Below, one piece after another: positions 5,726 to 22,180 of a stretch of 64,000 nucleotides of DNA; the stretch's first letter is position 1; the number at the start of each line of letters is the position of its first letter. The position numbers were made by a program, and so were the translations under genes. A model generated the notes under the pieces. That model did no database searches and was not told where the DNA came from. It was given only the letters and a program-made list of their open reading frames with translations. The stretch is from Exiguobacterium antarcticum DSM 14480 (GTDB lineage: Bacteria; Bacillota; Bacilli; Exiguobacteriales; Exiguobacteriaceae), in NCBI RefSeq assembly GCF_000685865.1, contig NZ_JMKS01000006.1, positions 124,001-188,000 on the forward strand, written 5' to 3'.

Positions 5726-6805
5726 TCAGTTGTTGACTTGAATGATGCGGAAAGATACGGTTCCGTCATTCCGGACGACACTGTAACCAAGCTGACCGTT
5801 GGTGAAGACCGGTTTTGAGTATTCGCCTTCCTTGTCCGTCAACGGGACGACGGTTCCATTCGACAGGTCCGCATACAGAAGTTGATTGCGCTCTTCCCGG
5901 AAGACGATGTGATCCGGCGTCAGGAAACAAAACCCGTCAATCAGGTAATACGGTTCGGGTGTCTTGTAACGGTAGGACGTATGATTCGACACGTGAGCTT
6001 GAAATTCCGCAGATCCTTCCGCTCCCGTCGCCAGATAATGCTGTCCATAGGCGAAATCAAACGGCATCGTCGTCTTTTTGATGGCTTTTCCGGAAAGCGT
6101 CGTATAGACAGTCGTCTTTTCGTCCGCTTTGTATGTCGTTTGATCAAGAAGAATTCCCGCATCACCGTCCCGTAAGGACTGGGCATAGTCGCCGCTCCGG
6201 GTTGCTGATTCCTTCACTGTCAGCGTTTTTTGTGTCGTGACGTACCCGGTCGCTACATCATATTTTTGCACGAGTGACTGGGTCTGATCTTTCTCATGGG
6301 TATGTTTGATCCAAGAGACATGTGCCGTCGTGGCTTGGAGATCCGGATAAAAACGAGACGGTTCTCTTCCGTGGTCAAGTTGTTGAAGTGATCCGGTTGC
6401 TAGATCCATCACTTCGAGTGTCCAGTTGCTGTCCTCTCCGTTGTCCTGATAACGGATCCAGAACAATTGTCGTCCGACACCGACCAGTTTATAGATGGTT
6501 TGGCTCGTCGAATAGATTTTTTTAAGTTGTCGATTCGTCAGCGAGTAACGGAAAATCGAACTGTCTTTTTCGATTGAGGCATAAAAGTACACGGCTGCTT
6601 CATCAATATAGCTCGGACCGGACAGGTAAGGATATCGTTGATAGACAGCAGTTAAATCGTAACTGTTGCTTTGTCCGAGCGGCGAAAACGTCTCACTGCG
6701 GATCAATTCTTTTGGTACTGGAACCGGGGGCGTTGGTTCCGGTTGACTGCATCCTACAAGCAGCAGGACAAGGCTGAATAAGCTGAGTTTTAAAAAATAA
6801 GGCAT
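5726..6805 (-). CDS. Lipoprotein with beta-propeller-like repeats (intact paralogue)
   Basis: A 359-residue lipoprotein. A hydrophobic signal ends in the lipobox LVGC (Cys 19), so it should be anchored to the outer face of the membrane. The rest shows repeated beta-rich units with W/F-x-x-Y and D-x-x-T-G-x-x-x-x-L/I patterns (VMDLATGSLQQLDHG, ADLSNGTVVPLTDKEGEYSKPVF), as in TolB/DUF5050-like propellers. It is clearly homologous over its whole length to the gene at 19567-20754, which carries a stop codon. Function unknown; a binding or sensing role at the cell surface is an inference. It is alone on its strand. Confidence 0.8.
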   Translation of the reverse strand: MPYFLKLSLFSLVLLLVGCSQPEPTPPVPVPKELIRSETFSPLGQSNSYDLTAVYQRYPYLSGPSYIDEAAVYFYASIEKDSSIFRYSLTNRQLKKIYSTSQTIYKLVGVGRQLFWIRYQDNGEDSNWTLEVMDLATGSLQQLDHGREPSRFYPDLQATTAHVSWIKHTHEKDQTQSLVQKYDVATGYVTTQKTLTVKESATRSGDYAQSLRDGDAGILLDQTTYKADEKTTVYTTLSGKAIKKTTMPFDFAYGQHYLATGAEGSAEFQAHVSNHTSYRYKTPEPYYLIDGFCFLTPDHIVFREERNQLLYADLSNGTVVPLTDKEGEYSKPVFTNGQLGYSVVRNDGTVSFRIIQVNN

Positions 6806-19107: not shown

Positions 19108-19455
19108 TTACCGTAAGATTTTTTCGAACGCTTTTCCTTTTGCCAATTCATCAATCAACTTATCAAGATAGCGGATTTCCCGCATCAACGGATCTTCGAC
19201 GTTTTCGACCCGGACGCCGCAGACGACACCTTTGATTAATAATCGACGTTCCTGCATATCCGGCGCATCCGCAAAAAAGGCTTCGAATGTCGTCTGATCT
19301 GTTGCCAGCGTTGCGAGTTGTTGCTCCGAGTAACCGGTCAGCCAGCAAATGATCGTATCGACTTCCTGTTTCGTCCGACCCTTGCGTTCCGCTTTTGTCA
19401 CGTAAAGCGGATAGACACTCGAAAACGCTGTCGTGTACAACCGATGTTTCGTCAT
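19108..19455 (-). CDS. DUF2200 protein
   Basis: A 115-residue cytosolic protein that matches DUF2200 along its length: [40 protein letters not shown], then [36 protein letters not shown]. Its function is unknown; the fold is expected to be helical. GGAGG precedes the start. Confidence 0.85.
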
Positions 19456-19534
19456 CGTATTTCCTCCTCATGACTAATTATTACTAAAATTGTAGCATAC
19501 CGAACGCTCGAAATGGCCCCCTCCTGATAAAACA

Positions 19535-19568
19535 AAGACCGTCCTTTTCGCACGAAAAGAACGGCCTT
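19535..19568. terminator. Bidirectional terminator after lipoprotein pseudogene
   Basis: AAGaCCGTcCTTTTCG / CGAAAAGaACGGcCTT stem with flanking A and T tracts. It overlaps the stop codon of the minus-strand lipoprotein pseudogene. Confidence 0.75.
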
Positions 19569-20754
19569 AACCAATCATTTTTTTTAAAACGATGACATGG
19601 AATTCAATCTGTTCGTCGTTCGATACCCCGTATGCCAGCTTCCCGTTCGCATAAATCGGTTTGGACGTTGTATCGGTCATTTCCGTCAAGGGAGCAACGG
19701 TGCCGCGCGCAAGATCGGCGTACCAGAGTCGCGTCATACTCTCTCGGAAAATGACCCGGTCAGCCGATAAAAAGCGGAATGCATCAACCGTCAAGCGGTT
19801 GTCCGACGGTTTGAACTGGTACCCCGGTTGTTGTCCTTTCTTAGGCATGAAGAGGGCGGAGCCTTCTTCGCCGATCGCAACGTACTTTTTGTTGTGTTCA
19901 AAATCAATCAGTCCGTTCATCCGTCGTTTAAACGTACCGTCAAACGTCTCGAGCGTCGGTGTTTTATGACCGTTCTTAAAAGTACTTGTATGCAAAATCA
20001 GCCCGGCATCGCTCCGGCGGAAGTCAAACGGATACTGCCCATTCCGTTTTTCGCCTTCTTTTAACATATACTGCTGATGGATAATGATGGCGTCTTCCGC
20101 GACATCAAACGACTTGAGGATGGTTTTCGTTCGGGTCGGTGTCGCTTCATGCGTCATCCAGGATACCCGTTTTGGCGACGTATCCAGATAAGGAATCGCC
20201 GTGTCATAACGGCTGATGCCTTGATCAAGCGTATTGATGTTTCCCGTCTTCAAGTCCATCAAGCGAATCGCCCATTTTTGTCCGGACTTGGTTTGATTGT
20301 ATTCGACCCAAAACAGGTAATGCGACACTCCGGTCATCATACCGATCGTCCGGTTGACCGTATGCAGCACTTGGTTATCGTTCGACCCTTGGCTGTAGCG
20401 GTAAATGTAACTGTTAATGGTGGTATCACTCGTTTGTTTAACATGCGTATAGTAGATCGATTGCTCATACAGATAGTCCGGAGCAATCAGGACGTTTTGA
20501 CCGGTAAAAAACGACGATAAATTGTATGTCTGATGTGTTCCGAGCGAAATCTGGTCTGTCTTTTTCTTCAGCGGCACATATTTTCCATAGTCGGACAAAG
20601 GGGTACTGACCGGTTCGAGATTTGGCGTCAGCTAAGCCACCTGCGGATCTGCCTTGATTTTCGACGGTTGCTTGGCTGAATCAGAATCGGTACATCCTGC
20701 GGTGAAGACGAGCGACACCATTAAAGCTGCCGTAAGAGCTGTTTTCCAGTGCAT
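19567..20754 (-). pseudogene. Propeller-like lipoprotein gene with in-frame amber codon
   Basis: Reading from the ATG at 20754 (AGGAG upstream) gives a lipoprotein signal with the lipobox FTAGC, then about 20 residues to a TAG at 20634-20632 (codon 41). The same frame continues without further breaks to 19567, for a full length of 395 codons. The body is homologous to the intact lipoprotein at 5726-6805 (shared GDAGILLDQT/SDAGLILHTS, DHIVFRE/DRVIFRE and YADLSNGTVVPLT/YADLARGTVAPLT blocks). The only defect is one stop codon in a linker region. Internal starts at 20598 would make a cytosolic protein with no signal, which is unlikely to be useful. Confidence 0.85.
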
Positions 20755-20785
20755 GATCTGTGTCTCCTTTTAGTCGAAGTGGTCA

Positions 20786-21025
20786 TCATCTACGGTTTTG
20801 TTTTCTTCTCCAACGCATCGAGACCAAAAAAGCGGAAATTCCGGACATCACAATCAGATATAACAAAAAGACGAAGGCGAATTCGCCATAATCTTCAAGA
20901 CTGTTGAATGGATTTTCTGTAATGAACGGCTCGGGTAGAATCCCGATCAAAAATAGCGGAATGAACAGCAGGAAAAACCGTTTCCAAAAATAATACTTGT
21001 ACGGGGTGCCGGTACGTATGTCCAT
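20786..21025 (-). CDS. Small membrane protein, unknown
   Basis: A 79-residue protein with two hydrophobic segments (FFLLFIPLFLIGILP and FAFVFLLYLIVMSGISAFLV) and a positive C-terminal tail (RWRRKQNRR). No family recognised. It lies upstream of the lipoprotein pseudogene on the same strand with a 31-nt gap and may have been its operon partner. Confidence 0.65.
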   Translation of the reverse strand: MDIRTGTPYKYYFWKRFFLLFIPLFLIGILPEPFITENPFNSLEDYGEFAFVFLLYLIVMSGISAFLVSMRWRRKQNRR

Positions 21026-21125
21026 CTACTTGCTCCTTCCGGTTAGTAAAAGTTAACATCCTTTATTTTACATAATAGCTTATTTTATACTTCGCTTGAG
21101 AGTCGGATTTAAATAAAACATCAAT

Positions 21126-21178
21126 ACAAAAACAGTCAATAAACACCAGTATGTCCGGTGTTTCTTGACTGTTTGAAC
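21126..21178 (-). terminator. Terminator after MDR oxidoreductase
   Basis: AAACAGTCAAtAAACACC / GGTGTTTcTTGACTGTTT, a long stem just past the stop codon of the minus-strand oxidoreductase gene. Confidence 0.8.
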
Positions 21179-21181
21179 GGT

Positions 21182-22180
21182 TTATTTGATTTTTAAGACG
21201 ACTTTTCCTTTAGCCCGAACGGACTCTGAATACTCGAGCGCCGCTTGGGCGTCTTCAAACGGATACACCCGGTCGATGACCGGTTTGATTTGTCCGCTCT
21301 CGATCCATTCCGTGATGTGTTCGAGTTGTCGACCACTTGGTCGCATGAACAAAAACGTATAGGTGACATCATGTTTTCGTTCAAGAAGTGTCTCGCGGAG
21401 AGTCAACAGTCTAAATAATGACGTCTTGAGAAAACCGGACCGGTAGGATTTACCGAACCGGCCGTTCGGCAGTCCGGAAACCGAGACGATGTGTCCACCC
21501 GGACGGACAACCTTAAACGACCGTCGGAGTGTCTCGCCGCCAATCGTATCGTAGACGCCGTCATAATCGTGCAACAGGTCCTCGAAGGCTTCGGTCCGGT
21601 AATTAATGATTTTATCGGCTCCAAGTGACTGGACAAGCTCATGTCCGGCGGGGCTTGCCGTCGTTGCGACATATAGACCCATCGCTTTCGCCAGTTGGAT
21701 CGCAAACGTTCCGACGCCTCCGGCACCGGCGTGAATCAAAATTTTTTGTCCGGGTGTCAGTTGCAGAATGTCATGTAACGTCTGATAGGATGTCAAGCCG
21801 ACCAGCGGAATCGAAGCCGCTTCCTCAAACGAAAGTGTGGCTGGTTTCAAAGCAAGCATCTGTTCATCGATTGCGATGTATTCAGCAAACGTGCCGATCC
21901 GGTTCTTCTCGGCACGACCGTAAACGGCATCTCCGATCTGAAACTTCGTGACGGCAGAACCGATTTCAGTAACGACACCGGAAAAATCATTGCCGAGAAT
22001 CAACGGGAACTGATAGGGAATCAACAGTTTGACGTTCCCGTCCCGAATCTTAAAATCAACCGGATTGATGCTTGCGGCATTAATTTCGATGAGCACATCG
22101 TAGGGATTGACCTGCGGACGGGGCTGTTCTGTAAGTTCAAGCGGGACGTGACCGTATTGTGTGATGGTCATGGCTTTCAT
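21182..22180 (-). CDS. Zinc-independent MDR NADP-dependent oxidoreductase
   Basis: A 332-residue medium-chain reductase of the quinone-oxidoreductase type. An N-terminal GroES-like domain (INAASINPVDFKIRDG, LGNDFSGVVTEIG) is followed by a Rossmann domain with the nucleotide loop AGAGGVGTFAIQLAKAMG. The zinc ligands of alcohol dehydrogenases are absent. Such enzymes reduce quinones or enones with NADPH. The start at 22180 has GGAG 9 nt upstream. It is monocistronic. Confidence 0.9.
   Translation of the reverse strand: MKAMTITQYGHVPLELTEQPRPQVNPYDVLIEINAASINPVDFKIRDGNVKLLIPYQFPLILGNDFSGVVTEIGSAVTKFQIGDAVYGRAEKNRIGTFAEYIAIDEQMLALKPATLSFEEAASIPLVGLTSYQTLHDILQLTPGQKILIHAGAGGVGTFAIQLAKAMGLYVATTASPAGHELVQSLGADKIINYRTEAFEDLLHDYDGVYDTIGGETLRRSFKVVRPGGHIVSVSGLPNGRFGKSYRSGFLKTSLFRLLTLRETLLERKHDVTYTFLFMRPSGRQLEHITEWIESGQIKPVIDRVYPFEDAQAALEYSESVRAKGKVVLKIK

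Follow-up and report, generated by a model that had tools for sequence, protein, structure and literature searches.

The closest described counterparts of the locus analysed here are bacterial nonsense pseudogenes, annotated as "internal stop", in which one premature stop codon interrupts a full-length conserved frame that has intact orthologues. Exiguobacterium species of this kind commonly carry pseudogenes, with 78 annotated for Exiguobacterium antarcticum B7 (PMC4247613) and 43 for Exiguobacterium sp. KRL4 (PMC8143284). Those pseudogene accounts, in the sections considered, do not name the lipoprotein gene described below (PMC4247613, PMC8143284). Our literature search found no paper on a nonsense mutation in an Exiguobacterium lipoprotein, and none on amber readthrough of bacterial nonsense pseudogenes.

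The window, a stretch of 64,000 nucleotides from E. antarcticum DSM 14480, contains such an interrupted gene. Nothing essential distinguishes it from the described nonsense pseudogenes; it is apparently young and shows little other decay. We consider it, with a probability of about 0.8, to be a nonsense allele through which a lineage-restricted and probably dispensable gene for an Exiguobacterium cell-surface lipoprotein has recently lost its function. As one more young nonsense pseudogene, it matters little by itself.

Layout of the interrupted frame and its locus

The frame runs from 19567 to 20754 on the reverse strand and comprises 396 codons, including the final TAA. Direct translation gives a single internal stop, a TAG at codon 41 (20632 to 20634, reverse strand), which lies in the variable linker between the lipobox and the body and removes most of the lipoprotein, in agreement with the original prediction of a lipoprotein frame broken by one amber codon. 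Upstream of the stop, positions 20692 to 20754 (reverse strand) would encode a signal peptide with the lipid-attachment cysteine at codon 21, in a Thr-Ala-Gly-Cys motif that we take to be the lipobox. Read from the sequence, this N-terminal signal with a lipidation cysteine at position 21 marks the product as a putative lipoprotein, and the Gly-Cys pair is invariant in all 21 aligned family members. A Shine-Dalgarno-like AAAGGAG (20764 to 20770, reverse strand) can be read directly nine bases 5' of the ATG.

Six close orthologues were compared, with one genome per species (G004, G008, G012, which is KRL4, G013, G014, and G018, which is E. undae). In the part behind the stop, identity over the best aligned segments is 96% with KRL4, 95% with E. 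undae, and 91% with E. sibiricum. All six loci compared have a hydrophobic 79-aa ORF adjoining the gene upstream (20786 to 21025, reverse strand, in the window) together with an alcohol dehydrogenase, and on the downstream side lie a DUF2200 gene and one for an alpha/beta hydrolase. The high identity behind the stop and the shared neighbours indicate one orthologous locus rather than a chance frame. The frame is unbroken in four of the six close orthologues (G008, G013, G014, and G018), and these intact copies occupy the same locus with the flanking genes present, as a nonsense pseudogene presupposes. The orthologue of E. undae DSM 14481 shares locus and neighbours with the window gene, but has an unbroken 392-residue frame that ends at its native TGA. 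Within the species, strains may be polymorphic at the TAG.

The frame had also been described as intact apart from the amber codon. This holds for the signal, Cys 21, and the open body; two further differences had been missed. Codon 42 is likewise unlike that of E. undae, G008, and KRL4, and an A8 tract near the 3' end (19578 to 19585, reverse strand) carries one inserted base that none of the six close orthologues has. The insertion alters the natural end, with the native TGA gone and three residues gained before the TAA. It is taken from the multi-orthologue alignment; the pairwise alignment with the E. undae frame ended at the E. undae stop, with no indel visible.

Directly 3' of the gene lies a likely intrinsic terminator with a 15-pair stem and a T-rich tail (19535 to 19568, reverse strand), found by a pattern match that gave 6 sites in the region against 2.5 expected from shuffles. 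A scan of positions 19400 to 21300 yielded no promoter for the lipoprotein gene; its two promoter-like sites are both on the opposite strand and are fewer than the 2.7 expected. Since the lipoprotein gene is the last before the likely terminator, its truncation should not harm the downstream neighbour.

We infer that the TAG base is real. Translation would then start normally and end at codon 41, giving a 40-residue precursor that consists of the signal and about 20 residues from the lipidated cysteine onward. The body of the lipoprotein would not be made, and no downstream gene would be affected.

Decoding of the amber codon

The stop at codon 41 is absent from all six close orthologues, being found in one of the seven close genomes, that of the window. 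Translation traced the flags raised by the genus search to other stops: the one TAG in KRL4 follows the frameshift of that gene, and the one TGA in several relatives is the native stop. Neither is a counterpart of codon 41. The amber codon had been attributed to a one-base change from CAG. E. undae, G008, and KRL4 align well at this position and have a glutamate codon there, whereas the linker of the other three close orthologues has gaps and different residues, so codon 41 is not strictly comparable in them. With glutamate in each of the three comparable relatives, a CAG ancestor encoding glutamine is not supported, and we rejected it.

The original prediction listed amber suppression among the explanations and pointed to suppressor tRNAs as something to look for. 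Suppression, or alternatively a programmed readthrough, would yield the full-length lipoprotein, and the frame conserved after the stop is what such decoding would leave. The rarity of TAG as a gene end is also favourable to it: among 351 ORFs of at least 150 aa in 464 kb of sequence including the window (47% G+C), TAG ends 10, TAA 199, and TGA 142, these being mechanical ORFs rather than curated genes, and within the window TAG ends 1 of 67 ORFs of at least 120 aa. A suppressor would cost little where so few genes end in TAG. However, a CUA anticodon is missing from all 62 tRNAs found (Rfam tRNA search, 150 of 181 first-look candidates scored; anticodons read for all 62 with ARAGORN, run on the 17 stretches containing them), and release factor 1 (RF1) is encoded, with a match above the cut-off. 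Nor is the stop conserved among the orthologues, in which codon 41 is a sense codon or falls in a linker with gaps and other residues. In addition, none of the ten TAG-ended ORFs in the 464 kb has an in-frame extension of at least 60 codons free of other ORFs, although this is a weak test with few ORFs; the same scan gave three such extensions behind TGA and two behind TAA, and three extensions behind TAG overlapped other ORFs. We therefore regard suppression or programmed readthrough as extremely unlikely. A reassigned amber codon was also rejected, RF1 being encoded and TAG still ending ORFs, though rarely. A scan of the 464 kb for frame interruptions found non-overlapping stretches set off before ORFs by TAG in 8 cases, by TAA in 10, and by TGA in 14, which is not informative.

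A related reading, to which we give hardly any weight, is that the stop acts as a tolerated, partly read-through switch in a TAG-poor genome, so that the strain would make the short lipopeptide for the most part and the full-length lipoprotein in small amounts.

The signal and the lipidation cysteine lie intact upstream of the stop, which would be compatible with a short lipopeptide that has a use of its own; alternatively, the body could be restarted internally as a cytosolic protein. Upstream of the in-frame start codons after codon 41, at most 4 of the 6 bases of AGGAGG are matched, so that no restart codon comes with a good ribosome-binding site and internal restart was rejected. A body restarted in the cytosol would also be made without export, and the short form occurs in none of the six close orthologues. 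Both variants thus appear very improbable, and a nonsense allele remains our preferred reading of the interrupted frame.

Selection on the frame and repeated interruption

The frame of the window gene still shows purifying selection. Its dN/dS is 0.17 against E. undae and 0.13 against KRL4, inside the range of 0.08 to 0.35 over all 21 pairs, where the first 75 codons were omitted from the E. sibiricum pairs because the frame is shifted there. Compared with E. undae, G008, and KRL4, the window gene has 13 silent changes and 9 amino-acid replacements of its own, in addition to the stop. The 9 replacements among 22 changes are fewer than the neutral expectation (binomial P of 0.0002 if 77.5% of sites are assumed to be replacement sites, and of 0.004 at 70%). 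An old, decayed pseudogene was ruled out by these values. Relaxed selection is not visible in the frame, but dN/dS also averages over the time before the lesion, and the same numbers would be expected if the protein were still made. Constraint has acted on the frame for most of its recent past, which implies that the lesion is recent or else that the protein is still made. Given the persisting constraint, we judge the lesion to be probably young. Very recent inactivation, one of the options first offered, fits best among them, in view of the low dN/dS, the private lesion, and the other lesions found in relatives.

These other lesions differ from one another. The KRL4 orthologue has a one-base insertion (+1) near codon 293, within a small scrambled patch. 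One base is missing from the E. sibiricum 255-15 orthologue near codon 62, and one from the gene of the more distant relative G003 near codon 231. Including the window gene, interruptions affect three of the seven close orthologues and 4 of the 18 carriers in the genus, and no two of them are alike. The different frameshifts in two close orthologues and one distant relative make the gene look dispensable, and we consider that it probably is.

An error in sequencing or assembly, or a change acquired by the isolate in culture, would leave the gene intact in nature. The constrained frame, and a stop that only one of the seven genomes carries, would both be consistent with such an origin. The assembly is good, however, with a 3.22-Mb genome in seven contigs and 100% completeness, and codon 42 and the 3' A-tract are privately different as well. 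The loss of the same gene in other lineages also speaks against an error, although the frameshifts of the relatives could be errors too. An error or culture change is an unlikely explanation, though a less remote one than readthrough or restart, and we continue to favour a genuine, recent nonsense allele.

The window also carries an intact, distant paralogue of the same family, a 359-aa lipoprotein at 5726 to 6805 on the reverse strand. It had been put forward as an unbroken homologue, which translation confirms, with the qualification that it is only 32% identical to the part of the focal gene behind the stop. This paralogue was found in seven genomes and is open in each of them, as are the eight members found among the 19 sister-genus genomes. 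The comparison of three interruptions in seven for the focal gene with none in seven for the paralogue comes from a sample too small to carry weight. The window gene contributes a small data point, namely that an uncharacterised, clade-restricted Exiguobacterium lipoprotein family has been lost more than once while a paralogue was kept. Such a pattern would fit a conditional or strain-specific role at the cell surface.

As a separate observation, the paralogue is nearly identical between the window and KRL4 (dS 0.016), whereas the focal genes of the same two genomes have a dS of 0.16. This contrast suggests recombination between the two lineages.

The intact protein and the range of its family

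The Pfam and NCBIfam searches gave nothing over the cut-off for the lipoprotein family, and a sequence search of the PDB gave one weak match (E 0.018), confined to the N-terminal lipoprotein part. The structure of the E. undae orthologue was predicted with AlphaFold2 from a three-sequence alignment, which resulted in a poor, all-beta model with a mean pLDDT of 51. Among the best 50 of 893 Foldseek rows, the query TM scores are about 0.14 to 0.28 and the identities about 10%; we recognised most of these 50 as propellers or propeller-containing proteins, such as TolB, kelch domains, and S9 peptidases. The likeness to the beta-propellers TolB and kelch is in fold only, the modelled orthologue being all-beta with repeated strands, but with the low pLDDT, the low TM scores, the identity near 10%, and no Pfam family over the cut-off, it is a lead and not a membership. 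The likeliest reading of the model, held with low confidence, is that the intact protein would be lipid-anchored, extracytoplasmic, all-beta, and propeller-like. The gene product is probably a membrane-anchored surface protein of an environmental bacterium.

A family member was found in 18 of the 19 genomes of the genus, with no family match in the remaining one (G005). The profile search gave matches in 26 of 38 genomes from the order and in 29 of the 398 genomes sampled from the class; the three matches outside the order are all partial. The order-wide matches, with just these three partial hits beyond, suggest that the family is largely confined to the order, within the class sampled. In the alignment of the close orthologues, the G014 gene appears as a mosaic, with a first part resembling E. 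sibiricum and a remainder resembling G008.
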